Assembly: GCA_017397805.1 (NCBI GenBank)
Contig: JAFQHW010000047.1
Location: forward strand, 1 to 43,834
Direction of reading: 5' to 3'
Length of the DNA stretch: 43,834 bases
From: Clostridia bacterium
GTDB lineage: Bacteria > Bacillota > Clostridia > Oscillospirales > CAG-382
Shown here piece after piece: positions 314 to 15,867 of this stretch. Below the pieces are notes generated by a model. The model made no database searches. It was not told the DNA's origin and saw nothing but the letters and a program-made list of their open reading frames with translations. Each line of letters begins with the position of its first letter. Positions within the stretch are counted from its first letter, which is position 1. The position numbers and the translations under genes are program-made.

Positions 314-396
314 GCGGTTGTGGCGGAACAGGCAGACGCGCACGTTTGAGGGGCGTGTGGGAGACCGTATGGGTTCAAGTCCCATCAGCCGCACCA
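314..396 (+). tRNA. tRNA-Leu, anticodon GAG
   Basis: The acceptor stem pairs 314-320 (GCGGTTG) with 386-392 (CAGCCGC, one G-T pair), followed by discriminator A393 and an encoded CCA at 394-396. The anticodon stem CACGT/GCGTG encloses the loop TTGAGGG with anticodon GAG, reading CUC and CUU. A long variable arm typical of class II tRNAs (Leu/Ser) lies before the T arm ATGGG-TTCAAGT-CCCAT. A tRNA 3' end is a common attachment site for integrases, but I found no second copy of this 3' end in the window. Confidence 0.95.
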
Positions 397-1963: not shown

Positions 1964-2902
1964 CTACTTCTTGTTCGAATAGATCTTTGTGATTGATTCC
2001 CTATGATGCCCCAAGCTCTCGCTAAGGTTGCGCTTGGCGTTGCGAATGTGATTTGCCTCCAACCATTCATCGCGCTTCTGTGTATAATAGTGACGAAGTC
2101 CGTGAAACGTGATCTTGTCAACCTTGGGCTTATAGCCTTCTTTCACATCATTCGTTCTATCGGATTCGGTGAACTTTGAACGATGGTTGATTACCCAATT
2201 CTGCCAGGAATCGATTTTGCGCTTAACACCATACTTCTTGTTTTCGCTTAAAACCAACTCCATACCCTGCAAGCCGTTCTTGGTTGCATGCGCTTTCAGA
2301 TCATTGAGTAACTCACGCTGTTCCGATCTTTCAACCGGAACTTCACGCACCTGACCGCCTTTACCCTTGACCCACAAGTGATCGTTATCAAGAGCCTTTT
2401 CAATGTGCTCTACGCGAATTCTTGCGACCTCACTTACACGAAGACCAAATTCTTTAGACAAGCCAATTGCAAAAACCACATCGGTTCTCCCCATTGCTTT
2501 TGCAAGTGCAACTGCCTTTTCGATTTCTTCGGGAAGCCAAGAACGATCCATTTCTCCGACTTTGCGTTTTTCCAATCCTAACTCGGCGTTATCGGGAAGA
2601 CGGTTTTTGCCGCCTACCAAACGATAAACGTAACGAATGGCGGAGAGATCGGACATAATGGTTGCAGGTGCAATGCCATCCGCTTGTCTTTTCTTGACAT
2701 AAGCACGAAGGTGTTTGCCGCTGAGGTTAGCAAACTTCTGCAAATGAAATTCTTTTACAAGAAATTCAACAAGCGGAGCTATTGCGCTTAAATAGCGTGC
2801 CTTGGTTGAATAGTGTCCCTCATTTGTATGATCAAAAGCAGACAAGATTTGAGCGATCATATTGTTGCTCATAGGAATTCTTGGATATTTGTATTTACCC
2901 AT
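1964..2902 (-). CDS. Tyrosine recombinase / phage-type integrase (312 aa)
   Basis: Catalyses site-specific strand exchange through a 3'-phosphotyrosine intermediate. The N-terminal half is a SAM-like core-binding domain with LSGKHLRAYVKKRQADG. The C-terminal half carries the family signature: first Arg in EFGLRVSEVARIR (about residue 175), HGLRHYYTQKR for the His-x-x-Arg box, then LGHHRESITKIYS with the nucleophilic Tyr close to the C-terminus. Length is normal for the family. It starts at an ATG behind AGAAAGGAG. It has an unusually long (about 280-base) leader with inverted repeats and a consensus promoter at 3186-3214. It most likely moves the island or an older element within it; it is distinct in sequence from the second recombinase at 11218. 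Confidence 0.9.
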   Translation of the reverse strand: MGKYKYPRIPMSNNMIAQILSAFDHTNEGHYSTKARYLSAIAPLVEFLVKEFHLQKFANLSGKHLRAYVKKRQADGIAPATIMSDLSAIRYVYRLVGGKNRLPDNAELGLEKRKVGEMDRSWLPEEIEKAVALAKAMGRTDVVFAIGLSKEFGLRVSEVARIRVEHIEKALDNDHLWVKGKGGQVREVPVERSEQRELLNDLKAHATKNGLQGMELVLSENKKYGVKRKIDSWQNWVINHRSKFTESDRTNDVKEGYKPKVDKITFHGLRHYYTQKRDEWLEANHIRNAKRNLSESLGHHRESITKIYSNKK

Positions 2903-2998
2903 AGAATATTTTCTCCTTTCTTTTATTCATCCGTACCAAACGCCGACAGATAAACCTCCTTTGCCTGTGGCTTTAGAATTTGTTTAGTACGGTATGTA

Positions 2999-3067
2999 GA
3001 GCAGCACAAGACTACTAAAGAAAGGATGGCGAAGAACGGAAGAGTGACCATTTTTCTTGTGCTGCTC
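2999..3067 (-). repeat. Inverted repeat in the integrase leader (12-bp arms)
   Basis: GAGCAGCACAAG (2999-3010) and CTTGTGCTGCTC (3056-3067) are perfect inverted copies separated by 45 bases. They lie in the untranslated leader between the integrase promoter and its start and could form a long hairpin in the RNA or bind a protein. Confidence 0.7.
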
Positions 3068-3127
3068 GGAATATGAAACACCGCGCTTTATTTGGCAAGA
3101 AAAAAGCAACAGGTATTTTCATATCCA

Positions 3128-3178
3128 CCAATATCCAAACGGCTTGGCAAGAGAATCCAAAACCGTTTTTCATATTGG
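3128..3178 (-). repeat. Inverted repeat at the start of the integrase transcript
   Basis: CCAATAT (3128-3134) plus AAACGG (3137-3142) pair with CCGTTT (3163-3168) plus ATATTGG (3172-3178). The structure begins almost exactly at the predicted transcription start of the minus-strand promoter at 3186-3214, so the integrase mRNA would start with a stable hairpin. Confidence 0.6.
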
Positions 3179-3185
3179 CTGAGGG

Positions 3186-3214
3186 AATATAGTACATACT
3201 TTTCGATTTGTCAA
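3186..3214 (-). promoter_or_regulatory. Promoter directed at the tyrosine integrase
   Basis: On the minus strand TTGACA (3214-3209), a 17-base spacer and TATATT (3191-3186) form a near-consensus sigma-A promoter. The -35 region and spacer share 17 identical bases (3199-3215) with the trmO promoter at 20850-20866. No other gene lies between it and the integrase start at 2902. Confidence 0.75.
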
Positions 3215-3253
3215 GTAGCTACAGCAAATTTTTTCATATTTTTTTAACATGGC

Positions 3254-3294
3254 AAAAAATCGGCGGTGCAGGAGCTTCAATCTCCTGCACCGCC
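3254..3294 (-). terminator. Strong minus-strand intrinsic terminator
   Basis: GGCGGTGCAGGAG (3262-3274) and CTCCTGCACCGCC (3282-3294) form a perfect 13-bp stem with a 7-base loop. On the minus strand the stem is followed by GA and six T's (3259-3254). It would end a minus-strand transcript coming from the gene-free stretch to its right and insulate the integrase promoter. Confidence 0.8.
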
Positions 3295-3371
3295 TTTGAA
3301 AAAGCAGGGCATTTTGCGCCGTCATTCCGAAAGGATGTCCATAGTCATATCGAAAATGATTATTCAGCCGA

Positions 3372-3427
3372 CTGTTTGATGTTTATTTGGTATCATTCCG
3401 CATTGACATCATTTGAACATCAAACAG
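3372..3427. repeat. Inverted repeat, 12-bp arms
   Basis: CTGTTTGATGTT (3372-3383) and AACATCAAACAG (3416-3427) are perfect inverted copies with a 32-base centre that itself contains one copy of the 10-base repeat. Confidence 0.65.
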
Positions 3428-3567
3428 CCGGAACACGCCGCAGGCGTGAAAATGCGCGGTCATATCGATTAGACGGTCATACTTTCCGATAGGTAGAGCA
3501 TAGTTAAATGTTTATTATTTAATAAAGAAATCATAAATCATATCGAAGTTATCATTTCGAAAAGACC

Positions 3568-3616
3568 AAAAGGGCATAACTCACCCACTGCACGTAGGGG
3601 CGAAGTATGCCCTTTT
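3568..3616. other. GGGCATA hairpin, possible transfer-origin-like or terminator element
   Basis: AAAAGGGCATA (3568-3578) pairs perfectly over 11 bp with TATGCCCTTTT (3606-3616). The 27-base centre contains ACCC and GGGG that can pair and the segment CACGTAGGGGCGAAG. Runs of T follow on both strands, so it could be a bidirectional terminator. Its size and position near an integrase would also suit an oriT-type hairpin, but there is no relaxase gene in the window to support that. Confidence 0.4.
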
Positions 3617-3681
3617 TCTATCATTTTCTTTCCGAAAGGATGGCAAAACCCTTGTTGACGCAAGGCTTTTGTCTGTCATAG

Positions 3682-3725
3682 GGCAATAGTTTCTATTTTA
3701 CTTTCGTATAATAGAAACCATTGCC
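3682..3725. repeat. Long hairpin-forming inverted repeat
   Basis: GGCAAT-a-GTTTCTATT (3682-3697) pairs with AATAGAAAC-c-ATTGCC (3710-3725): 15 pairs with one internal mismatch and a 12-base loop. There is no T tract on either side, so it is not an obvious terminator. Confidence 0.6.
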
Positions 3726-4241
3726 AGAGAAGGTCATTTTATCATCCCGATTGGAAATCATATGTCATTCCGATGTGACGGTCATATTATCCGTTCCGAA
3801 AAGGCATCATATTCAGTTGCACCGCAAGTGGTGAGTACTCAGGGTAATCCTATTAAAGGATCCCCTTAGCGTACCCATCTGAAACAGAGGTGTCGGCGAA
3901 CCGACTACGCATGCCGAGTACCGAACTCTATCGGTCAGCCCCCTCAACTACAAGGCTGTTCGGCAGAGATTTGATTAACGATCAAATCTTCCAAAACATC
4001 GCCGCACTACGCTGTGCGGGAAAGAAAACGCGGTATAGGTCACAAAACATCTTTCAAGCCGTCTACCGCTGGCGGTTGGCTGTTTGCAAATACCGGCTAC
4101 AACTTAACCTACCGTAGTCATATCTGCTCTCTTTCGGTCACACACAGCCCTGTGAGCCGAATGCTTTTGCATCAACTTCTACTACATTGCTTTTACGAAC
4201 ATTTCTATTCCTCCCAGATTAAACTCTACCTTCCTATATTG

Positions 4242-4272
4242 AAAAAGTACGCCTACAATATTGCAGGCGTAC
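4242..4272 (-). terminator. Terminator of the six-ORF HerA operon
   Basis: GTACGCCT and AGGCGTAC arms (4247-4254 / 4265-4272) around CAATATTG form a hairpin followed on the minus strand by five T's (4246-4242). It lies about 30 bases after the stop codon of the last operon gene. Confidence 0.85.
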
Positions 4273-4300
4273 CTTAAAAAAGCAAGTAATTTAGTTTAGA

Positions 4301-6088
4301 TTAGTCAATAATATTCTTTTTGGTAGGAGTTTCATCCGAATCTCCATAAACCGATTGTTTTTCTTTAACAACCGTATCTACCGTTTGGAGTATTGATTCT
4401 TTGAAACTATCAATATACATGTTATTTTTAATTGCTGAGCAATACTTTTCCAATGCTTCAGCAGACAAAGAATTGTCAGGGGTAAACATAGTAATTATTG
4501 TTAAATTCAAGTTTCGACCGTATTTTTCGCAATAGAACAACATACTTATGCAACGATTGCGTTCGCTGTTAAATTTAAAAATCATAGCGTTAGGATATTC
4601 TAAGTTTACCAAATTTACAGCTTTAGCATTAGCTGAATAATTGACTACTTCTCCATCATAATCAGCAACCAAAGCATCAAACTCTTTGGCAAGTGCCTCG
4701 GCAGATACTTTTTGTCCACTTGCCAGAGGCAAAGTTTTTGTCCATTTAGATTGCGCTAGCGAATAGTTTAAGTCCATTTTCTTCATCGACAGTTTTCTGA
4801 AGAAAACACTATAGTCGTTATTGTTCCAATCAAGAGAACTGTTATCAAAAACAAAATCTTTACTCGGTGCAATATCATAAATACGGATGTTAGCTGTTCC
4901 ACCGCTTTCAAGGAACGAAAGCCTTTCTTGAATATCTGCAGGCAACTGTACACCCAGTTCCACCGATTTTCTCAAAACGAATAATTCTATTTCATACAGT
5001 TCCATCCATGCGAGTCCGGATGCTAAATATGTAGCGTCTTCCCAAGAGGAATCACCCGATGCCATCCAAGTGTTTATAGAATCCATCTCTTGACGAACGA
5101 GAGATATACCGCCTAATTGATTTTTAGCATAAATTTTCGCTAACAGAACCTCAACTTTGGGCACAATAATATTCTTATCTCCAGCAAAATTAACCGTATA
5201 ACGATTAAACATATCGGTTGCTGTATTAAAGTTCTCTACATCAAAAGGCTTTAATTTTGCATAATACCACAAAGACGTAACTGATGATTTTATAAACGAA
5301 AGCAATTTGCCGCTTGCTAATATTTGAATGATATCCTGGTTAGAATTGTAAATATCGGAGACAAAGGTTTTAAGCTTGTTGATGCCTCCTATACTAATCC
5401 ATTCCGCTTGTTTATCAAACAACTCCGGATTATCCATAGGAAAGTCAAAAACTCCATATTCTGTTTGAGTGATGTGCATAAAAGGCAATTCAAACACAAG
5501 GCTTATTGCCGTAGTTAATACTTCTACAGATTTTTCTGATTCATCCGTGTGATACAGCTCATTGAAGCATTCTACAAGGTTAAGTGCATAGACAAGACTT
5601 GGAAGCCCGGGAATGCCACTCGGAGCATCATTTCCGCTCATTTGAGCTCTGAGGTGATTTTTAAGTTCATTATAATAGAAGTTCCAATAATTATCATATG
5701 TTGTTTTATATCTACTGTCAGAAGTAACAGCATTGGACCACATCTGTTTTATGCGATTGTGGTAATATGCTGGCTTTTGTTCGCTATTTACAACGTAACA
5801 AGACTTCATCATCTGGTTATAGATTGATTTCAAATCATTTTCCCATGCCTGATATTTTCGGTTTGCTTCATACTGGGCATCTTCGCTATCAGAACATGCT
5901 CCGGCGATTAATCCTATCAACCCACCGATGATTCCACACACAATGCCCGATGTCATAACACTACCCTCGTTCATAGAACTTTCACCGCACGAGAGAAAGT
6001 CGTCTACACACCAAATCAATCCGCATCCAACTGCACCAATGATTCCTCCAATTATCAAGCCAAGAAACAACCAACTAACTTTTTTCAT
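4301..6088 (-). CDS. Large N-terminally membrane-anchored protein of the HerA operon (595 aa)
   Basis: I do not recognise the family. Two glycine-rich hydrophobic segments (about residues 5-27 and 45-65) are followed by about 525 mostly soluble, helix-rich residues. Two cysteines sit at lipobox-like positions: Cys22 in GAVGC and Cys65 in IAGAC, the latter followed by SDSED. Neither fits the classic L-x-x-C rule perfectly, but the adjacent gene is an Lgt-like lipoprotein acyltransferase, so lipidation is a reasonable hypothesis. Alternatively these are ordinary transmembrane helices. The tail (from about residue 410) contains an alternating hydrophobic region ending in TPTKKNIID. The start at 6088 has AAAGGAAAGG upstream and overlaps the lgt-like gene by 14 bases, so it is translationally coupled. 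Last gene of the operon, followed directly by a terminator. Confidence 0.8.
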   Translation of the reverse strand: MKKVSWLFLGLIIGGIIGAVGCGLIWCVDDFLSCGESSMNEGSVMTSGIVCGIIGGLIGLIAGACSDSEDAQYEANRKYQAWENDLKSIYNQMMKSCYVVNSEQKPAYYHNRIKQMWSNAVTSDSRYKTTYDNYWNFYYNELKNHLRAQMSGNDAPSGIPGLPSLVYALNLVECFNELYHTDESEKSVEVLTTAISLVFELPFMHITQTEYGVFDFPMDNPELFDKQAEWISIGGINKLKTFVSDIYNSNQDIIQILASGKLLSFIKSSVTSLWYYAKLKPFDVENFNTATDMFNRYTVNFAGDKNIIVPKVEVLLAKIYAKNQLGGISLVRQEMDSINTWMASGDSSWEDATYLASGLAWMELYEIELFVLRKSVELGVQLPADIQERLSFLESGGTANIRIYDIAPSKDFVFDNSSLDWNNNDYSVFFRKLSMKKMDLNYSLAQSKWTKTLPLASGQKVSAEALAKEFDALVADYDGEVVNYSANAKAVNLVNLEYPNAMIFKFNSERNRCISMLFYCEKYGRNLNLTIITMFTPDNSLSAEALEKYCSAIKNNMYIDSFKESILQTVDTVVKEKQSVYGDSDETPTKKNIID

Positions 6089-6839
6089 TTTTTACCTTTC
6101 CTTTACTATAATATTTTAAACAAATATAAATTACAACAAGTATACTAATAACTTGACTAAATGAAATAAAACCGAACACTCCTCTAAGTTCATCACCTCT
6201 AAAGAATTCATTTACAAACCTAAATGTTGCATAAGACAATAAATACGCATCCAATAGTTTGTTTTTGTCATATTTGTTTTTTATGTAACAATAAACAATA
6301 ACCCCAAATACAACAAGTTCAAATCCAGCTTCAAACAATTGTGTTGGATAACGTGATTGCCAACATCCGTCAAATCCTATGCGATATGGAATAGATAAAA
6401 GCCCTGTAGAAACTTTTCCGTAACAACATCCGCCTAAAAAACACCCCAGTCTTCCGAAAAAATGAAACAAAGGAATACAAAAAGCAACGATCCCAGATAA
6501 TTCATCGAAACGGAGTTTTTTCTTCACGCACAGCAACTTGATTGTTATTATAAAGCCAATCAATCCTCCATAATAGACAATCCCTGAGTCCAAACATTCT
6601 AATAAATCAAATGATCCACCATTATACAAATCATTTAATACCCTGCTTGCCACACCAAATAATTTTGCACCTATGAACAATCCCAACAGAGACCAAAAGA
6701 CTACGCTTATATATTTCGTTAGCATCTGCTTTTGCATAAGGAAACAACACACTAGCGTGATTGAAACTATCAACCCAAGTCCGGCGCATAAAGTATATGT
6801 TGGTATTTTAGCATTAAAAACTTCAATATAAGGATACAT
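6075..6839 (-). CDS. Lgt-like prolipoprotein diacylglyceryl transferase (254 aa)
   Basis: A polytopic membrane enzyme of the Lgt family, which transfers diacylglyceryl from phosphatidylglycerol to the lipobox cysteine of preprolipoproteins. Visible signatures: GIVYYGGLIG, HFFGRLGCFLGGCCYG (the GR-G motif carries the Arg essential in E. coli Lgt), RYPTQLFEA and FRFVNEFFRGDE with a second conserved Arg. At least six hydrophobic helices are present. The Cys-rich GRLGCFLGGCCYG in place of the housekeeping GR-GNF form marks a divergent subfamily. Finding such an enzyme inside an island operon, away from the usual hprK/lgt context, suggests a dedicated substrate, perhaps the next gene's product. 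The start ATG shares one base with the stop of the 68-aa gene (TAATG). Confidence 0.85.
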   Translation of the reverse strand: MYPYIEVFNAKIPTYTLCAGLGLIVSITLVCCFLMQKQMLTKYISVVFWSLLGLFIGAKLFGVASRVLNDLYNGGSFDLLECLDSGIVYYGGLIGFIITIKLLCVKKKLRFDELSGIVAFCIPLFHFFGRLGCFLGGCCYGKVSTGLLSIPYRIGFDGCWQSRYPTQLFEAGFELVVFGVIVYCYIKNKYDKNKLLDAYLLSYATFRFVNEFFRGDELRGVFGFISFSQVISILVVIYICLKYYSKGKVKNEKS

Positions 6840-7045
6840 TAAATTTCAACATTCCCATCGAAATCATCAGAATATTTGGGCAAAATCTTATCCAATTCTT
6901 TCTTTTCCGCAACCGCATTGTCAAGTGCACTCAAATATTCATCACGAGTGCAAGAATAATCGGTTATACAGGGAATATAACCAAATACATCTCTGTATTT
7001 TTTGTTCTTTTCCCTAAGGATTTGATTAAACTCTTTTGTTTCCAT
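6839..7045 (-). CDS. Small acidic protein of the HerA operon (68 aa)
   Basis: No family recognised. The ATG follows the metallopeptidase stop immediately (TAAATG) and its AGGAGG lies inside the last codons of that gene, so the reading frame is convincingly real and coupled. The product has a Lys/Arg-rich N-terminal helix, a CITDYSCTRDEYLSALDN segment with two Cys six residues apart, and an acidic C-terminus (PKYSDDFDGNVEI). No membrane segment. Its strict coupling between peptidase and lgt-like genes suggests a chaperone, immunity or adaptor role, but nothing in the sequence decides this. Confidence 0.7.
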   Translation of the reverse strand: METKEFNQILREKNKKYRDVFGYIPCITDYSCTRDEYLSALDNAVAEKKELDKILPKYSDDFDGNVEI

Positions 7046-7732
7046 TTAGCAACCTCCTATAATTGTTTTGAATCTTGTTGTGGTATTGGGAAAATATTTC
7101 TCCACAAACCCAACGACATCAGCATCATTTTCTGCGTAAATGCCAAAAAGATTTGCAAACACTTCTCGTTCCACAGCTTTTTCCGGCCCGTTCAAACCGT
7201 CCCAATATGAATTACTATGATGATAATAAGCAGCTCCATTTTGATAATATCTATCCATTATCATCGTATTATTGTGAAATACACCTGATAAAATATCAGA
7301 TAGATATCTTGAATCAAAGGCTGATGAATTCTCCAATTCTTCGAGAAGATTATTCAAATTTTGTGATCCTTCCTCATTGCTTGGATTATACCATTCATAA
7401 TCAGCACCAAGTGCGTAATTAAAATTTTCCGTCATTGACGGTCTACCTAATTGTGCATCTGCAAAATGCCCATATTCGTGACGAAATGTTATAGCGTATT
7501 CTTCGTTATCCTTTGTTTCGTCCATACGTATAATGTTATCTATTTCCGAGTAGTGGGATATTTCGGAAACAAATTGTCCATTATAGTTGAGCTTTTTACG
7601 GCATTTTCCCACATTTAAGTTCGAAGAAAATCTTTCAGTTATTTGTTTGATTTCGTCCGTAGCATTTCGAAATCCTTCATTAACAGTTTCTAAACGTTCC
7701 TTAGGAACTGCATCAAAGCAATGTTGCTCCAA
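7046..7732 (-). CDS. Zinc metallopeptidase domain, second half of an ORF split by TGA (228 aa)
   Basis: Contains the zincin motif HEYGH (residues 85-89 from the TTG start) in ITFRHEYGHFADAQLG, with a candidate third zinc ligand in the later Glu-rich helix EKAVEREVFANLF. The frame is the same as that of the coiled-coil ORF upstream: one TGA codon (7763-7765) and ten further sense codons separate them. A TTG at 7732 with AGGA just upstream could allow independent initiation, but it is weak. Without the TGA the two would form one protein of about 399 residues: coiled coil, then peptidase, as in many secreted effector or conflict proteins. Whether this is a nonsense mutation, readthrough, or true separate translation cannot be told from sequence. 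Followed by a coupled 68-aa gene. Confidence 0.7.
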   Translation of the reverse strand: MEQHCFDAVPKERLETVNEGFRNATDEIKQITERFSSNLNVGKCRKKLNYNGQFVSEISHYSEIDNIIRMDETKDNEEYAITFRHEYGHFADAQLGRPSMTENFNYALGADYEWYNPSNEEGSQNLNNLLEELENSSAFDSRYLSDILSGVFHNNTMIMDRYYQNGAAYYHHSNSYWDGLNGPEKAVEREVFANLFGIYAENDADVVGFVEKYFPNTTTRFKTIIGGC

Positions 7733-7762
7733 ACGTCCTGTCAGATTTTCTTTGAGGTTCCT

Positions 7763-8245
7763 TCAAAGGGAAGATAGTTTGTGCGAAACTTCATGCATCT
7801 CTTTTTCGGTTTCAATTAATTCCTCATTAAATTCCTCTAGGTCCTGTTTATTGTCATCCAATTCAGAGATTGCGTCTTCCAAACTACCACCCAAACCAAA
7901 TCTATCCAGCAATGCCTTTTTTTGCTCCAGTTTTGATTTCTGCTCATCGTTGCTACTAATCGATTCGCTGGTTTCCTGTTTCAATTCATCCAGTTGACGA
8001 GCATCAGAGTCCATTTCGCCCGATAATTCAGTTCCTTTTTCTGCGTTTTCTTCAAGGGCTCTATTGATCTGTTCCATTATTGTTTCTTGCACTTCTTCGT
8101 CGATTTCAGAACCTTGAATATCACTACCGGCATCCATTAACTTTTCTTTATTTTCTTCCAGTTTTGCCAGTTCACTTTTTTTGGCTTCGATATTTTGCTT
8201 AATTTCATCTACCTTGCCCTTGTTGCGTTCAAGATTAAATGCCAT
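7763..8245 (-). CDS. Coiled-coil protein, first half of an ORF split by TGA (160 aa)
   Basis: Nearly the whole product is a charged, heptad-rich coiled coil (KVDEIKQNIEAKKSELAKLE onward) with two breaks around residues 40 and 115 (RFGLGGSLEDA). No signal peptide. The ATG at 8245 has AAAGGAG and starts 12 bases after the HerA stop. It ends at TGA 7763-7765, after which the same frame continues into a metallopeptidase domain. Long N-terminal coiled coils in front of a toxin or enzyme domain are typical of effector proteins exported by ATPase-driven systems (established for LXG/WXG-type toxins); similarity to those families is not evident here and the link is inference. Confidence 0.75.
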   Translation of the reverse strand: MAFNLERNKGKVDEIKQNIEAKKSELAKLEENKEKLMDAGSDIQGSEIDEEVQETIMEQINRALEENAEKGTELSGEMDSDARQLDELKQETSESISSNDEQKSKLEQKKALLDRFGLGGSLEDAISELDDNKQDLEEFNEELIETEKEMHEVSHKLSSL

Positions 8246-8257
8246 ATGTATTCTCCT

Positions 8258-10864
8258 TTACAAATTAATTAACATTGTCGCTTTACGGAATTTCTTTTCG
8301 AATGTTATGCCAATTGTTTTGATAATTTCTATAAGTTGTTCTTTCCGTGTTGCTTCTATAAAACTATCATCCAGGATTTTGCACTCGTACAAATAGGAAC
8401 GATTCAAAATCTTCAACCCGTTAAGTGCATCTACTTTTGTTTCGATCCATTTATGGAATGTGTCTACATCCATTGCATTCAAATCAACATTTTTCAACGA
8501 GTTTATTAATTTAATTTCCTTATCAAGTGCAGCTTCTACTTTGGTTTTTATATGCTCAAATTTTTCGTTTTCCTCTTTAACACGAATTGCTTTATACGAA
8601 GGTTTGTTTTTCATAATTTCAAACAACTCTTTATCGTCTGGTGTTTCTTCTCCGTGTTCGGGAACTAATGCCACTTGCATTTCAAACGGTCGGAGTAATT
8701 TTTCATATGTAATTAAAGCTTGTCCGCTTGTATACGTTGCCATATTCTCCATTTGCAAGGGGCTTGCTGACATTGTGCTTCCAACAAGTCCTCTGTCATC
8801 GGATGCGGTCAATCTATGAACAAGTTTAATATTAGTGTTTTTGATAACCTCGGGAGCCATTGCCGTAGGCAACTGATCAGCAATTATAATTCCTTCCCTC
8901 AATGCACGAACTTCCGCAAGCATTTTCACTATATAAGCAGTTGCAGCAATCTTGGGATTTGAATCTTGCGGATCATCCACCTGAGACTCTGCGGCAATTA
9001 GGTTGTGTGCTTCCTCTATAAAAATGACATGACGAACAGGCTTATTTCTGTCTTTATACGGATTTGCTTTCAAAGTTTCTCTGATGAGTGTACAAAGCAA
9101 AAGAGTAACGAAATTTGCAGGTCCTTCACCAAGTGCCTCTAACTCCACTACAACAGGTCGTTCCAGCCATTCCTCAGGAGAAAGTGTTGATTTCTTTACA
9201 TCAAACATATCCTTCATTTCTCGTCTTAGCAAACTGCCGATTCGCATTTCCAAAACAGAGCGGATATTACCTTGAATTTCGCTGTCATAGTTTGTGTTTA
9301 ACAGTTCTTTTTCAAACTGATTATATAGTTCCGACATTGTCGGATATTCTTTTACCCCAGTGTTAATGTCTTTAGCATTCCATCCACGGTTTTCATATAT
9401 TTTTTGTATTGCTCGGTCAAGTATAAAAGGCGCCGGAGGAGCTATGGGGAAAGCACCTTCAAAAACTTGGCACAATCTGTTTATGTGCTCTGACAAGGTG
9501 AGTCCCAATGGAAATTCGAATGGATTGATTTTTATAGGGAAATTAGTACGTGCTGACGGAGAAAATATTATCAATTCAGGTATATCAAACAGTGCTAATT
9601 CTCTGTATTCTCTCTTAGCAGGTTCAAGAACCAAAAACGGAATGTGTGCTTTTGTTTCCTTTCCGTTTTCATCTATAACCGAATGATTCCATAGGCTATT
9701 TGCTATCAACAACATTGTGTTCGTTTTTCCTGAGCCAGGAACACCACAAACAAACATATGCTTCGGGAAAAGTTTTTCGGGAATCTTAACATCATAGTTA
9801 TTTGTGTCTTTACCAATTATAATTCCGCTTTTTTCATGCAGAGGAGATGTTTCTTTTGGTATTTCTATTGATTCGCCGTCATAAAGTATCGGAAATCTCA
9901 CAAATGCTGAAATCTCTTCCGAAGTAAAAGTTATTGGCCAATTTTTCAATGAGTTAGGAGCATTTTCGCTGTGATATTGTTGGTTCTCGTCGATACGATC
10001 AAACAAATTATTTTCACTGAATTCTAAAACATTAAAATTGCCTGTAATGGTTTTAATGGTTCCTGTACCATTTTTAACGCTTTCAGTTATAGCGCTATCT
10101 AACAAAAGTTGTGAATAATGCTTATCGTTAGAAAGTGCACACACTCTACACTTATATACAGGATTTTCATCAATCGACTTCAACCAATCTTCGTACTGAT
10201 GTAATGTTTCATCAGCGTTTGGATCTCTTTTTTCGGTTTCGATTCTTGACAGTTCACTAATTCCGGATGTTTTATTCGAAATGTTTCTTAAATAACGCAA
10301 GGGACGTTCAAAACTGCTATGTATTTCATCCTCTAATCCATGTTGGGAATACAAATCTACTCGATAACAACATTTTTCATCAAAGGCTTGCATCATTTTC
10401 AGCAATCCATAAAGCCTTGCTTCTTCGTTCATTTCCCAATTTTGAACGACATAAAAATATTGTTCCTCATTATTAAGAGAGGTCTGTAATAAACGTTCCT
10501 TCTTTATCATGATTGCCATTTCAGAAAAATGTTCTGTAGGCAAAATGGTGTCATCAACTTCTTTGAAATTAAAATAACTCGAAATACCAGAAGCTTTTAT
10601 TACCTTTTTAAGCTTAAAGTTATAATTATCTTCTTTTGACAATCCAGAGAAAAACATCAATATACTCAATTTCTGTCCGTCTTGACGCTTCGGATCATAG
10701 TCGAACAAAAAGTGAATATTCGTTTTCCCCAATAAAGATATTCTATGCAATTGTTTGATAAACTGTGTCTGCGCTGCAATCATACCCTCAATTCCAGAAT
10801 CCGCAAAAACTTGGTATTTACTTAAAGTTAAATCTGGAATAGTCTGAATCTGATAAATTAACAA
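8258..10864 (-). CDS. HerA/FtsK-superfamily ATPase (868 aa)
   Basis: The central and C-terminal parts form a HerA/VirB4/FtsK-type motor. Walker A is GVPGSGKT at residues 374-381, preceded by PEKLFPKHMFVCG. Walker B is HVIFIEEAH at 612-620 with tandem Glu. HRLTASDDRGLVGSTMSA (683-700) resembles the conserved ATPase segment after Walker B. The N-terminal 330 residues are not recognisable and contain a C-x-x-C (KCRVCAL, about 240). No membrane helix. The start is TTG at 10862-10864 with a strong AAAGGAGG eight bases upstream. HerA-like motors pump DNA (with NurA, Sir2 or nuclease partners in defence) or protein (VirB4, EssC). No nuclease partner is present; lipoprotein and peptidase partners favour an envelope role. 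First gene of the operon; its only strong promoter lies on an invertible segment. Confidence 0.85.
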   Translation of the reverse strand: MLIYQIQTIPDLTLSKYQVFADSGIEGMIAAQTQFIKQLHRISLLGKTNIHFLFDYDPKRQDGQKLSILMFFSGLSKEDNYNFKLKKVIKASGISSYFNFKEVDDTILPTEHFSEMAIMIKKERLLQTSLNNEEQYFYVVQNWEMNEEARLYGLLKMMQAFDEKCCYRVDLYSQHGLEDEIHSSFERPLRYLRNISNKTSGISELSRIETEKRDPNADETLHQYEDWLKSIDENPVYKCRVCALSNDKHYSQLLLDSAITESVKNGTGTIKTITGNFNVLEFSENNLFDRIDENQQYHSENAPNSLKNWPITFTSEEISAFVRFPILYDGESIEIPKETSPLHEKSGIIIGKDTNNYDVKIPEKLFPKHMFVCGVPGSGKTNTMLLIANSLWNHSVIDENGKETKAHIPFLVLEPAKREYRELALFDIPELIIFSPSARTNFPIKINPFEFPLGLTLSEHINRLCQVFEGAFPIAPPAPFILDRAIQKIYENRGWNAKDINTGVKEYPTMSELYNQFEKELLNTNYDSEIQGNIRSVLEMRIGSLLRREMKDMFDVKKSTLSPEEWLERPVVVELEALGEGPANFVTLLLCTLIRETLKANPYKDRNKPVRHVIFIEEAHNLIAAESQVDDPQDSNPKIAATAYIVKMLAEVRALREGIIIADQLPTAMAPEVIKNTNIKLVHRLTASDDRGLVGSTMSASPLQMENMATYTSGQALITYEKLLRPFEMQVALVPEHGEETPDDKELFEIMKNKPSYKAIRVKEENEKFEHIKTKVEAALDKEIKLINSLKNVDLNAMDVDTFHKWIETKVDALNGLKILNRSYLYECKILDDSFIEATRKEQLIEIIKTIGITFEKKFRKATMLINL

Positions 10865-10897
10865 CTACCCTTCCTCCTTTGCCCATCTTTAGAATGC

Positions 10898-10920
10898 AAC
10901 ATAATGGCGATTATGTTGTA
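10898..10920 (+). repeat. Left inverted repeat of the invertible promoter segment
   Basis: AACATAATGGCGATTATGTTGTA is 23 bases and has a perfect inverted copy at 11168-11190. Each copy is itself a near-palindrome, AACATAAT-GGCG-ATTATGTT, the shape expected of a tyrosine-recombinase core site with two arms and an asymmetric centre. It lies 34 bases upstream of the HerA gene start. Confidence 0.9.
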
Positions 10921-10979
10921 ACAAAATAACGCTAAAATAACGTATACATACCAACAATCTCTTTTCATCATAAAAAACA

Positions 10980-11045
10980 GCATGACGAAAAAGCCTTTCC
11001 ATTATTTCCATAAAGAAAGATAAAGGAAAGGCTTTTTTGTCATGC
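10980..11045. terminator. Bidirectional terminator inside the invertible segment
   Basis: GCATGACgAAAAAGCCTTTCC (10980-11000) pairs with 11025-11045 over about 20 bp with one mismatch and a 24-base loop. T runs occur on both strands. In the present orientation it would stop any transcript running left from the recombinase toward the HerA gene. Confidence 0.85.
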
Positions 11046-11095
11046 CAACAATTTCATTTATACTAACCAAACCTTTGAAAGATTTGTAAAATCAG

Positions 11096-11124
11096 TTGAT
11101 TTACTGTCGAATTTATGCTATAAT
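11096..11124 (+). promoter_or_regulatory. Promoter on the invertible segment, in OFF orientation
   Basis: TTGATT (11096-11101), 17-base spacer, and TGCTATAAT with TATAAT at 11119-11124: five of six -35 bases, a perfect -10 and an extended TG. Predicted start near 11131. It points right, away from the HerA operon, and its transcript meets a terminator at 11196-11219 after about 90 bases. Confidence 0.85.
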
Positions 11125-11167
11125 GTTTCCATATTTTATGATTGTAAATAATATGGTGATTAATATC

Positions 11168-11190
11168 TACAACATAATCGCCATTATGTT
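11168..11190 (-). repeat. Right inverted repeat of the invertible promoter segment
   Basis: The exact reverse complement of 10898-10920. It is 27 bases beyond the stop codon of the adjacent tyrosine recombinase, so recombinase gene and site are linked. Confidence 0.9.
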
Positions 11191-11195
11191 ATTTG

Positions 11196-11219
11196 CCGAT
11201 ACTGTGGGTATCGGTTTTT
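11196..11219 (+). terminator. Terminator catching the OFF-orientation transcript
   Basis: CCGATAC (11196-11202) and GTATCGG (11208-11214) form a 7-bp stem with a 5-base loop, followed by five T's (11215-11219). It lies just outside the right inverted repeat and overlaps the end of the recombinase gene on the other strand, so OFF transcripts stop before running antisense into that gene. Confidence 0.75.
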
Positions 11220-12060
11220 ATATTATCAGGCGCATATTTTCCATCTTGCGTTTATGTTCTGCCCCGGTTGTAATAATGTAGATTCGAGTAGTATTGATAC
11301 TGCTGTGACCGAGAATGTCAGCAAGCTTAGCAATATCCTTTTCTATACCGTAAAAAGTACGTGCAAACAGATGGCGAAGATTGTGAGGGAATACCTTATC
11401 AGGAGATACCCCCGCCTGCTCACATAATGCTTTCATCTCACGCCAGATATTGCATCGGCTCATAGGTTTACCGGATTTAGTGATAAAAACACAACCTGTA
11501 GTAATGCCCTTAGCCTTGATATAGTTTAATAGTTTTTTCTGCAACTCCCGAACGATAAACACCGTTCGGGTTTTATTTTTGCAGGAAACTACCGCCTCGC
11601 CCTTACGCACTGCCTCAACCGTGATAAACTGCAATTCGCTGACACGGATACCGGTTCCACAGATTGTCTGTAGTATCAAGTTCAGTCTCTCATTGCATTT
11701 TTGTTTAGCTGTATTTACAAGACGGATATACTCTGATTTCGTAAGTTCCTTCTCTTCGGAACAAAATGCTTTTTTCTGTACCTTAAACTGCTTGATGCAG
11801 CAATCCATCCAACCCATAAACCGCAGAAAAGCATTAACCGCCGCAATCATTGAATTGGCACTTGCAACTTCGTAACTCTCCACAAGCGAAGCCTTAAATT
11901 CCATAACAACTGCCTTGCTGATTTCTCTTGTTCCTACAAACTTAGAAAAAGCCTTTACATCACGCAAATACTTTTCGATGGTATTGTCACTTTTTTCATC
12001 GTTTTGCAGTTGCTCTTGGAAATCATTGAGCACATTAAGTGTTATTGTTCTTTGATTCAT
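11218..12060 (-). CDS. Tyrosine recombinase, probable DNA invertase (about 280 aa)
   Basis: An XerC/XerD-like recombinase. The core-binding domain occupies roughly residues 1-95; the catalytic domain has the first Arg in GTGIRVSELQF, the His-x-x-Arg box in HNLRHLFAR, and LGHSSINTTRIYI with the nucleophilic Tyr. An upstream in-frame ATG (12075) exists, but GGAGGT (12071-12066) lies between it and ATG 12060, which has the better spacing; ATG 12066 is too close. It ends 27 bases from a 23-bp inverted repeat whose partner is 34 bases from the HerA operon, so it most likely inverts that promoter segment rather than moving the island. It is unlike the integrase at 1964 in sequence beyond the shared catalytic motifs. 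Confidence 0.9.
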   Translation of the reverse strand: MNQRTITLNVLNDFQEQLQNDEKSDNTIEKYLRDVKAFSKFVGTREISKAVVMEFKASLVESYEVASANSMIAAVNAFLRFMGWMDCCIKQFKVQKKAFCSEEKELTKSEYIRLVNTAKQKCNERLNLILQTICGTGIRVSELQFITVEAVRKGEAVVSCKNKTRTVFIVRELQKKLLNYIKAKGITTGCVFITKSGKPMSRCNIWREMKALCEQAGVSPDKVFPHNLRHLFARTFYGIEKDIAKLADILGHSSINTTRIYIITTGAEHKRKMENMRLII

Positions 12061-12250
12061 ACTCATTACCTCCATTTATCTATTTTACAACAACTTTTCA
12101 GATGCTGTGGAGTCGAGTATAGATATGAGTAAGAAAAAAGCAAGTAAAAAGAGAATAATTAGTTATAATATAAAATTTTCGTCCAAGAGGGGAAATTAGA
12201 AAAAGAGACTATTCTTTATGTTCAATGCATACAATTAATATAAAAACTAG

Positions 12251-12279
12251 TTGAATTCTATCGCAAATTATGGTAAAAT
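12251..12279 (+). promoter_or_regulatory. Promoter of the TIR gene
   Basis: TTGAAT (12251-12256), 17-base spacer, TAAAAT (12274-12279). The predicted start at about 12286 is only seven bases before ATG 12293 and after the AGGAG at 12281, which argues for translation from ATG 12314. Confidence 0.65.
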
Positions 12280-12313
12280 AAGGAGAAATTTGATGAAAGT
12301 GTGGAGAAAGCAC

Positions 12314-13333
12314 ATGAAAGTGTTTATTAGTTGGTCAGGAGCCACTAGCTTAAAAGTTGCTCAAATTTTTAGAGAATGGCTTCCTTCAGTTATACAGTCT
12401 ATAGAACCTTATGTATCATCCGAGGATATTGACAAAGGCGCGCGATGGAGTACAGATATAGCAACAGAATTAGCCGATTCAACTTTTGGTATTCTATGTG
12501 TTACAAAGGACAATCTAGAAGCACCGTGGCTATCCTTTGAAGCTGGTGCATTGTCAAAAACCATGGAAAAATCCTTTGTAACGCCTTTTCTTTTTGATAT
12601 CAAGCGTTCAGAAGTCAAAGGGCCTATCTTGCAGTTTCAATCCACCATTTTTGAAAAAGATGACATTAAGAAAATGGTTAAAACATTGAATAAAGCAAGC
12701 GGAGATTCTGGTATATCAGAAACACGCCTGGATAATTATTTTGATGTTTGGTATCCAACATTAGAATCCAAACTTAACGAATTAAAGAGCGAAATTGTTT
12801 CTACAAATGAAAGCGATGAGGAACAAAGCGGCGAGCATTCTTCTGAAATTTTAGAAGAGATTCTTGAACTTTCAAGAGATAACCAAAAGCTGTTGAGAAC
12901 ACCGGACACAAAACTGTATGATGATATAGCGTTACTGAAAGACTCCGTAGAACAAATTTCTATACGGAATTCAATGATGTACGACAAAAGAAGAACTAGC
13001 CGGAAATATAATGCTATGTTTTTAGAAGAAGTAGTGCATATGTTTGGTAAAAGTTCTTATGGGTTTTTAATGGCACTGAGTTTATTCAAAGAAGATTTTC
13101 CCTGGATCTATGATATGGGGAAAGAATTGATGGATATTTTAAAGAGTCAAAAAAATCCCGAGGAGAAAATGGGTGCTATACGCGATTTCAGAGAAATGAT
13201 CGATTATACTTGTGGCAATCCCATAATGCGAGATGTATTTGAGCGCAACAAGGACACTATGATGCTTTTAAAAGAAATGCCTTATATTCTAATGAGATAT
13301 TTGGATGATTTATCTGAACATTATATTAAATGA
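12314..13333 (+). CDS. TIR-domain protein (339 aa)
   Basis: Residues 1-130 form a TIR domain: MKVFISWSG at the N-terminus, SEDIDKGARW, and the catalytic Glu76 in APWLSFEAGAL, the position used by NAD-consuming bacterial TIR enzymes. The second half is helical, with an acidic coiled-coil stretch (about 165-210) and a hydrophobic-helix C-terminus, and is not recognisable. Start: ATG 12314 has GGAG seven bases upstream and gives the usual family N-terminus; in-frame ATG 12293 (seven residues longer, AGGAG upstream) and TTG 12251 are alternatives, the last lying in the -35 box. No cyclic-ADPR-sensing partner gene is adjacent, so a complete Thoeris pair is not evident; it looks like a standalone TIR with a built-in sensor region. 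Probable antiphage abortive-infection gene by family and context. Confidence 0.85.
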   Translation: MKVFISWSGATSLKVAQIFREWLPSVIQSIEPYVSSEDIDKGARWSTDIATELADSTFGILCVTKDNLEAPWLSFEAGALSKTMEKSFVTPFLFDIKRSEVKGPILQFQSTIFEKDDIKKMVKTLNKASGDSGISETRLDNYFDVWYPTLESKLNELKSEIVSTNESDEEQSGEHSSEILEEILELSRDNQKLLRTPDTKLYDDIALLKDSVEQISIRNSMMYDKRRTSRKYNAMFLEEVVHMFGKSSYGFLMALSLFKEDFPWIYDMGKELMDILKSQKNPEEKMGAIRDFREMIDYTCGNPIMRDVFERNKDTMMLLKEMPYILMRYLDDLSEHYIK

Positions 13334-14319: not shown

Positions 14320-15867
14320 ATGAAAGCCGTGATTTACGCCAGGTATTCATCGGATAATCAGCGTGAAGAGTCAATCGAAGGTCAGCTTCGTGAATGTATA
14401 GAGTTTGCCAAATATAACGAAATGACCGTCGTAAACACATATATTGATCGTGCTTTGTCAGCAAAAACGGATAACCGTCCCGAATTTCAAAAGATGATTA
14501 AGGACAGCTATAAAGGTGGTTTTGATGTAATCATTGTTTGGAAGTTAGATCGCTTTGCCCGCAACCGCTACGATTCTGCACATTATAAGGCACTTCTTAA
14601 AAAGAATAATGTTCGTGTAATTTCTGCAAAGGAGTCTATCTCCGAAGGTGCTGAAGGCATTTTGCTTGAATCACTCCTTGAAGGCTATGCAGAGTATTAT
14701 TCTGTTGAGCTTGCTGAGAAGGTTAAGCGTGGACTTACCGAAAACGCCTTGAAAGGTAGATGGAACGGTGGAACAGTACCGTTTGGGTATGTAGTTGGTA
14801 AAGAACAAACCTTGGAGATTGATCCCAATACTGCTCCAATTGTAAAGCTAATCTATCAAATGGCTGATGACGGTAAAACTGTTCGTGACATACACAAATA
14901 TTTGGAATTCCAAAGTATTACTCGTAGCAATGGTAAACCACTTCGCTACAATGCAGTTCGATACATTCTTTCTAACAGAACATATATCGGTGAGTACAAC
15001 CATTCGGGAATAAAGATTGAAGACAGCATCCCTGCCATTATTGATAAAATGCAGTTTGAGCGTGTACAAAACGAGTTGAAGAAGAACTCAAAGGCTACTG
15101 CAAGGCATACGGCAGACGATGACTACTTGCTGACTACTAAGCTGTTCTGTGGCAAATGTGGTGCTATGATGGTTGCACAGGCAGGGACAAGCCACACCGG
15201 AAAAGTTCATCGTTATTACGCTTGTGTTCGTCAGAAAAAGCATAAGTGCGACAAGAAGATGTTTCACAAGGAAAAACTTGAAAACTTCATTGTGTATAAA
15301 ACTATGGAGATGCTGAAAGAGGACAGCGTTATAGAGGAACTTGCCGCATTGCTCTATAATCTGCAATACAACGAAAGCACCATCCTACCACAGTTGGAAG
15401 CACAGCTCCACGAGAAAGAGCGAGAGATCGACAATATCGTAACCGCTATTCAGCAGGGTGTTGCTTCGCAGGCATTGATGAAGCGACTGAACGAGATTGA
15501 AAAACAAAAAGAGGATATTGAAACTGCCATAACAAAAGAGCAGATCAAAGCACCGACCTACTCTTTGGATGAATATAGAATGGCATTATGCAATTACCGC
15601 AAGCTGGATATAACCAAACAGGACGGCAAACGCAAACTGATCGACACGTTTATAAACGCTGTTTATGCCTATGACGATCACTTCAAAATCATATACAACG
15701 GGAACAATAAAGAGGAAACAGTAAGTTTGGAAACACTCGAAAACAGTTCAACCTTGTTTTCATCCGGTGCACCAAAAAATCCGAGAACATTGTTCTCGGA
15801 TTTTTGTTGTTTTTTTGGGTGCGTTTTTCAATTTTCGAAGATTGACTATTCCACGATTACGAAATAA
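14320..15867 (+). CDS. Large serine recombinase (515 aa)
   Basis: Integrates or excises DNA through a 5'-phosphoserine intermediate. The resolvase domain (1-150) starts IYARYSSDNQ with the catalytic Ser10 and has VWKLDRFARNRYDSAHYK. A recombinase domain (160-265) contains GGTVPFGYVVG and ILSNRTYIGEY. A zinc ribbon (270-310) is KLFCGKCGAMM followed by ACVRQKKHKCDKK, and a coiled coil (360-410) precedes the tail. Start ATG 14320 has AAGGAGG. The last 30 codons cross a bidirectional terminator (15775-15805), and the stop lies 22 bases inside the 3' end of the convergent mgtC. This suggests the native 3' end lies near the terminator and the ORF extends across the element-chromosome junction. It is the likely mover of the island or its right part. 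Confidence 0.92.
   Translation: MKAVIYARYSSDNQREESIEGQLRECIEFAKYNEMTVVNTYIDRALSAKTDNRPEFQKMIKDSYKGGFDVIIVWKLDRFARNRYDSAHYKALLKKNNVRVISAKESISEGAEGILLESLLEGYAEYYSVELAEKVKRGLTENALKGRWNGGTVPFGYVVGKEQTLEIDPNTAPIVKLIYQMADDGKTVRDIHKYLEFQSITRSNGKPLRYNAVRYILSNRTYIGEYNHSGIKIEDSIPAIIDKMQFERVQNELKKNSKATARHTADDDYLLTTKLFCGKCGAMMVAQAGTSHTGKVHRYYACVRQKKHKCDKKMFHKEKLENFIVYKTMEMLKEDSVIEELAALLYNLQYNESTILPQLEAQLHEKEREIDNIVTAIQQGVASQALMKRLNEIEKQKEDIETAITKEQIKAPTYSLDEYRMALCNYRKLDITKQDGKRKLIDTFINAVYAYDDHFKIIYNGNNKEETVSLETLENSSTLFSSGAPKNPRTLFSDFCCFFGCVFQFSKIDYSTITK
15775..15805. terminator. Bidirectional terminator within the serine recombinase 3' end
   Basis: AAAAATCCGAGAACA (15775-15789) and TGTTCTCGGATTTTT (15791-15805) are perfect inverted copies. 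T runs exist on both strands, so it can serve both the recombinase and the convergent mgtC. It sits upstream of the annotated recombinase stop. Confidence 0.85.

Follow-up and report, generated by a model that had tools for sequence, protein, structure and literature searches.

A candidate kilobase structured RNA upstream of a tyrosine recombinase gene in probable genomic islands of Clostridia

The window analyzed here is a 43,834-nucleotide stretch of DNA from a Clostridia bacterium (contig JAFQHW010000047.1), and our subject is its gene-free segment at positions 3254-4250 (hereafter, the stretch), located 5' of a tyrosine recombinase (integrase) gene. Read on the minus strand from 4250 to 3254, the stretch probably encodes a stand-alone structured noncoding RNA (ncRNA) of about 1 kb, representing a new family outside Rfam 15 in the integration module of an apparent mobile island of gut bacteria. 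The stretch is conserved and non-coding, its structure covaries, and it is linked to the integrase gene and co-oriented with it. The placement of a promoter and a terminator at its two ends suggests that it is transcribed. A first-pass annotation of the window had put forward a large structured ncRNA as a candidate at this place, and the conserved, covarying and complex secondary structure found in 10 loci now supports it.

Distribution and coding status of the stretch

Nine further loci carry relatives of the stretch, 10 in all with the window. In 9 of the 10, it lies directly 5' of the same tyrosine recombinase family, in the orientation of the recombinase gene. Whole copies are present in the window, L021, L013, L024, L033, L062 and L058 (L and G numbers denote loci and genomes, respectively). 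The L012 copy lacks its 5' end at a contig edge, L023 holds the 3' part, and L014 holds the 5' part; the integrase search gave no match in the genome of L014. A DNA search of 99 related genomes matched, besides the window, G005 (L012), G051 (L013), G012 (L014) and G001, the last of which was dropped, as it lies by eye inside protein-coding sequence. The integrase search placed the L012 and L013 copies 5' of relatives of the window integrase. Seven loci came from a scan of genome contigs in which the integrase alignment served as query; L020 and L022 duplicate the L012/L013 loci, L021, L023 and L024, from metagenome-assembled genomes named Clostridia or Oscillospiraceae, are additional carriers, and the remaining two are L025 and L026, described below.

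Model R1, a covariance model built on a single hairpin (H_C, Table 1), recovered the three known members among 394 genomes of the order, together with a new one from another family, G757 (L033; E 2e-10). Downstream of this copy, the same integrase was subsequently recognized, there 45% identical to that of the window and its closest alignment row. When 375 genomes of the order were searched with an integrase profile, 14 gave a match. Five of them carry the stretch: the window, G051, G757 and the new G668 (L062) and G514 (L058). In G011 and G499, the gene-free region is of a different sequence type. G529 and G489 have a gene directly upstream of the integrase, and G497 and G640 no model match; G569, G031 and G670 are cut by contig ends.

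The family is rare in the genomes searched. At the class level (391 genomes), both the DNA search and the search with model R2 returned the window itself only, a 24-base DNA match in G416 being put down to chance, and a phylum-level search with model R3 (174 genomes) gave the same result. No DNA similarity to the stretch was found in plasmids and phages. No relative came from viral contigs, for which the queries were the integrase by itself, the integrase alignment and three DNA patterns.

The stretch is flanked by a 595-amino-acid open reading frame (ORF; 4301-6088, minus strand) and by the recombinase gene. Three ORFs of 75-94 amino acids overlap it (3208-3492, 3890-4117 and 4014-4277, all on the plus strand) and could be taken to indicate decayed or unannotated coding sequence, a reading we find hardly credible. 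The longest stop-free run is 92 codons, compared with a shuffle median of 85, in keeping with the earlier view that no credible ORF is present. The identity of the stretch is 91.9% between L012 and L021 and 90.8% between L013 and L024, and that of the integrase is 92.1% and 91.8%, respectively. At this gene-level conservation, 6 of 6 (L012/L021) and 7 of 9 (L013/L024) indels in the stretch break the frame, their lengths not being multiples of three, and the integrases of these pairs contain no indels. Substitutions by codon position are distributed 32/34/25 (L012/L021) and 36/31/35 (L013/L024) in the stretch versus 11/8/55 and 10/2/63 in the integrase. A decayed gene, which the first-pass annotation had raised as the alternative to its own proposal, is therefore contradicted, because the stretch is conserved like a gene yet has no codon signature.

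Conserved fold, repeats and transcription signals

The minus-strand fold of the stretch has an energy of -344 kcal/mol, compared with -272 (standard deviation 5.9) for 20 dinucleotide shuffles (z -12.3). Arms with 79-94% complementarity occur at 3368-3431, 3682-3725, 3568-3616 and 3262-3294, and 7 terminator-like sites lie in 2850-4400, against a shuffle mean of 1.5. The stretch is thus as rich in hairpins as had been described, and the UUCG-loop hairpin noted on the minus strand is indeed present. The hairpins are parts of one conserved architecture, not a loose collection.

The most elaborate part of this architecture is the branched 5' core domain, whose unpaired tail after P7 is CTAACC-like (ACTCACC in the window). 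Unconstrained minimum-energy folds of L062, L014, L013 and L033 give the same order of core helices; that of L021 does not reproduce it. P1, P2, P4, P5 and P6 are present in 9 of 9 sequences with few single mismatches, their arms having been placed by hand. Compensatory changes are found in P2 (e.g., TGCCGA/TCGGCA, TGCCAT/ATGGCA, CATCGG/CCGATG) and in P6 (e.g., GCGTA/TACGC, GCGCA/TGCGC, GTGCA/TGCAC). In the MAFFT alignment (n = 7), the covariation score of the core is 0.260 versus 0.140, with 0 of 500 shuffles as high, and 75.8% of the cells are paired, compared with 31.9-48.6% after sliding by 1-3 columns. Model R3, built from seven core sequences with L058 left out, places the held-out L058 correctly (E 4.4e-4).

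Further hairpins follow the core. H_A occurs in 7 of the 10 loci, and its outer pairs vary yet stay paired; the incomplete L014 and L023 copies do not include its position. In the H_C region (n = 6), 8 pairs are changed on both sides, again with 0 of 500 shuffles as high, and 94.8% of the cells are paired versus 26-43% after sliding. An alignment fitted to the model was used here because MAFFT misplaced the 3' arm of H_C in L033. L062 gives a weak R2 match in this region (E 0.002), and L058 none. The covariation that the first-pass annotation had suggested looking for in alignments of relatives is accordingly present in both H_C and the core.

TTTCGRWATGA-like repeats are scattered between these hairpins. 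Eight sites occur in the stretch, compared with 0.24 in 200 mononucleotide shuffles. Counts are 7-12 in the window, L012, L021, L013 and L024, and 10 in L033, with shuffle means of 0.2-0.5. The repeats are often 23-25 bp apart. A looser setting (3 mismatches in 14, whole window) gives a modest excess, 12 versus 5.5.

A sigma-70-like promoter precedes the stretch, where none had been clearly seen before. Its pattern, TTG-N3-N17-WATATT, is found at the equivalent place in the window, L013, L021, L024 and L062, that is, in 5 of the 8 loci holding the 5' flank. None was recognized in L033, L058 or L014, and the L012 and L023 copies lack that region. The hairpin previously assigned as the terminator of the upstream operon does form a terminator-like end, but it also overlaps the promoter -10 box; its dyad, TACGCCTGCAATATTGTAGGCGTA, is shared by the window and L013, and L062 has a close copy. 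Near the 5' end of the stretch, GGAGGAAT occurs in the window, L062, L021, L013, L024 and L014, followed by a short ORF of 6-10 codons in the window, L062 and L014 only. At the opposite end, the perfect 13-bp terminator reported earlier stands. Terminators with perfect arms of at least 11 are found in the window, L062, L012, L013, L024 and L023, and those of L021 and L033 are imperfect, as judged by eye. The separate integrase promoter beyond the terminator has a counterpart in L021 and L012. Regarding the strand, the core folds better in the sense orientation in 7 of 9 cases (mean z -3.2 vs -2.2), and the minus strand is most probably the active one.

Table 1. Positions of the features in the window
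Feature	Positions	Strand	Remarks
Proposed large ncRNA gene, ~1.0 kb	3254-4250	-	Conserved non-coding architecture in 10 loci; 5' end ~4250, 3' end at the terminator
Sigma-70-like promoter TTGCTT-17-AATATT	4257-4285	-	Inside the hairpin earlier read as operon terminator
Dyad TACGCCTGCAATATTGTAGGCGTA overlapping the -10 box	4248-4271		Also terminator-like end of the upstream operon
Shine-Dalgarno-like GGAGGAATA and 6-codon leader ORF (MFVKAM, stop)	4182-4214	-	Window
5' core domain	3825-3996	-	P1; P2 enclosing two hairpins; P6 enclosing P4 and P5; P7; unpaired tail
P4 hairpin GTCGG-TTCG-CCGAC	3892-3905	-	UUCG loop
Hairpin H_A	3682-3725	-	Inner stem TTTCTAT..ATAGAAA invariant; outer stem covarying
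Hairpin H_B (GGGCATA..TATGCCC)	3568-3616	-	Relatives: other sequence in each group, same place
CACGCC hairpin and long stem H_C	3359-3451	-	Models R1/R2
Eight TTTCGRWATGA-like repeats	3322-3774	-	3774-3765, 3636-3627, 3561-3552, 3547-3538, 3469-3460, 3402-3393, 3354-3345, 3331-3322
Intrinsic terminator	3262-3294	-	13 pairs, 7-nt loop, then GATTTTTT
Separate integrase promoter TTGACA-17-TATATT	3186-3214	-	Beyond the terminator
Tyrosine recombinase, Xer/IntI-like	1964-2902	-	Pfam PF00589 Phage_integrase and SAM-like N-terminal domain
tRNA-Leu (GAG)	314-396	+	3' end faces the integrase

Alternative explanations and a possible mechanism

Several observations weigh against a structured RNA. The covariation is drawn from 6-9 related sequences, alignment A8 was fitted to its own structure, and the core helices across 9 sequences were placed by hand. 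The measure of further pair types in the core shows no excess over shuffles, and R3 does not detect L033. H_A was not found in L058, nor was a terminator, and L058 and L033 are without a recognized promoter. Over the whole stretch, the sense strand folds better in 2 of 4 cases only, and folding of the close pairs shows no strand preference. The repeats are near-palindromic and vary little, which would fit DNA-binding sites as well.

This last point leads to the possibility that the stretch acts as DNA, serving recombination or maintenance, with the repeats as protein sites (arm sites of the recombinase, or sites of a partition or replication protein) and the hairpins as cruciforms or folded single strands, comparable to integron attC sites or single-strand origins. 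The near-palindromic form, recurrent spacing and constancy of the repeats, the invariant inner arms of H_A, the resemblance of the recombinase to Xer and IntI proteins, and the weak strand signal of the folds would all be consistent with such an element. We nevertheless consider it unlikely, in view of the promoter and terminator at fixed places and the branched core with its compensatory changes. Additionally, copies facing tRNA or ssrA genes appear to stay whole, unlike a split attP core, as far as can be judged with island ends that are unmapped. The narrower idea that the stretch is the attP core itself is disfavored because copies adjoining tRNA or transfer-messenger RNA (tmRNA) genes keep it intact.

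Alternatively, the stretch could be a long leader of the integrase gene, with transcription from the promoter at 4285 controlling the integrase through the leader ORF and the terminator, as in attenuation. The fixed position 5' of the integrase, the Shine-Dalgarno sequence with a short ORF in three loci, and the terminator just ahead of the gene can be cited in its favor. However, the integrase has its own promoter past the terminator, the short ORF is absent from L013, L024 and L021, and a multidomain stretch of about 1 kb far exceeds the needs of an attenuator. A leader function is thus very unlikely.

The reading we prefer remains the stand-alone ncRNA. As a tentative proposal, which we hold as possible and do not regard as the expected outcome, this RNA would work together with the recombinase, or with a different protein of the island, by way of the repeats, and so modulate integration, excision or the expression of the integrase. 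The island would consist of a tRNA-Leu target, the tyrosine recombinase and variable cargo with defense genes. The RNA would be transcribed from its own promoter toward the integrase gene, and the strong terminator would end it ahead of the integrase's own promoter. It would fold into the branched 5' core and the long hairpins, with UUUCGRWAUGA repeats between them, to which the recombinase or another island protein may bind; the bound RNA would then exert the tuning effect. A host- or defense-directed role of the candidate RNA is also possible.

The linkage to one enzyme, the integrase, in 9 of 10 loci provides a concrete partner that can be tested directly. If the RNA takes part in recombination, this would represent a new principle for tyrosine recombinases. 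If it does not, it would still add one more structured RNA to islands carrying, in the present case, defense genes (TIR-TM, HerA-like).

Integrase relatives, probable island setting and known systems

By profile, the closest solved relatives of the window integrase are XerC-like proteins, IntI4 and XerH. Plasmid-borne relatives were represented by 12 fetched loci of 101 matched records. In all 12, the integrase is immediately preceded by 546-1556 bp that carry no annotated gene (median 1203), compared with a median of 110 and a maximum of 795 bp for 56 other gaps in these loci. Annotation in the plasmid gene tables is incomplete, and a 198-amino-acid ORF lies in the L068 stretch. Seven of these stretches (L035, L037, L038, L039, L040, L065, L068) have perfect-arm inverted repeats of 12-27 bp, above five shuffles each, and L034, L036, L064, L066 and L067 have no inverted repeats with such arms. 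Three Paenibacillus sequences share the inner CTTTCTCTCTG..CAGAGAGAAAG, and the outer pairs differ in one of them, as in H_A. The plasmid stretches may be related to the window RNA family; no covariance model match links the two. The boldest reading, a family of RNA-dependent tyrosine recombinases, in which a structured RNA of kilobase length, bound through UUUCGRWAUGA, would be required by the recombinase or would direct it, and in which the 12 plasmid stretches would do the same with other RNA sequences, seems quite unlikely.

Other upstream regions in this integrase family were also observed. In the Vallitalea plasmid (L039, 1860-2560), several near-identical, unannotated repeats of about 100 bp (CACCAAAATGGTGTATGGCCATCAAAGATGG..) lie 5' of the integrase. 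L055 and L063, from G499 and G011, have an ORF-free stretch of a different sequence type in the 1.4-2.6 kb 5' of the integrase; its long repeats include GGTAAGCAGTT and the word ACTAACC. The integrase relatives in L025 and L026 (Desulfofundulus/Desulfovirgula) have a different upstream region (3800-4400 in L025). It is GC-rich, contains many inverted repeats and is conserved from one locus to the other; Rfam gave no match in either.

Similarity of the window to three relatives ends at 396-397, the 3' end of tRNA-Leu, and past this point the relatives' DNA shows no match to the window. L022, L023 and L024 have a tmRNA gene on the side of the integrase. A direct repeat of the tRNA end was not found at the right border with up to 3 mismatches allowed. 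The cargo differs between islands: the protein next to the stretch in L013 is no recognizable relative of that in the window, and the neighbors in L024 include a TIR-like protein. A serine recombinase lies downstream in L012, L021 and L033, as read from translations, and at 14320-15867 in the window. The window cargo (4301-13333) includes a prolipoprotein diacylglyceryl transferase homologue (6075-6839), a HerA/mad8-like ATPase (8258-10864) and TIR-TM (12251-13333; PADLOC E 5.6e-114), and is possibly an undescribed defense operon. Within it, the segment 10898-11190 has identical 23-bp copies of AACATAATGGCGATTATGTTGTA at its two ends, in inverted orientation. Next to it is a Xer-like recombinase (11218-12075, minus strand) that also matches tyrosine DNA invertases. 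A promoter identified by eye in this segment, TTGATT-17-TATAAT (11096-11124, plus strand), points away from the HerA-like operon, which starts at 10864 (minus strand). The segment resembles the invertible promoter of a phase-variable operon, at present in the off orientation.

To our knowledge, large ornate bacterial RNAs are few and mostly without known function. Rfam 15 matched only tRNA and tmRNA genes in the window stretch and 17 related loci; with relaxed thresholds, the best subthreshold matches in the stretch were single hairpins only. The covariance models of GOLLD, ROOL, OLE, HEARO and raiA gave no match in the stretch at the gathering score, so the earlier failure to place it in a family holds. 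In the open-access PMC papers searched, we found no description of this tyrosine-recombinase-linked RNA family. An integron integrase with attC/attI sites offers a parallel, as the window recombinase is distantly similar to IntI and adjoins hairpin-forming DNA. In contrast to an integron, no cassette array was seen, and the recombinase scores 34.1 bits against NCBIfam TIGR02249 (integron integrase), far below the cut-off of 265.

IS110 elements use a DEDD recombinase, and that of the window instead has the Phage_integrase and SAM-like N-terminal domains. The IS110 bridge RNA, as described in PMC11208158, is likewise an ncRNA encoded beside its own element's recombinase; the window RNA differs in being far longer and in its tyrosine-type (PF00589) partner. 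ARRPOF, as presented in PMC12641628, takes its name from a plasmid and is a large structured RNA that is conserved; the window RNA, which has no Rfam match, resembles it by this description. GOLLD and ROOL are reported, in PMC12286853, to be large, structured RNAs of mobile DNA whose function is unknown, found in phages and prophages near tRNA islands. The setting of the window RNA, which the first-pass annotation had likened to theirs, differs from this account: it is, in all likelihood, the integration module of tyrosine-recombinase islands. The window RNA is further set apart from GOLLD and ROOL by its tie to a tyrosine recombinase, its TTTCGRWATGA array and the lack of an Rfam match, and shares with them large size, structure and location on mobile DNA.
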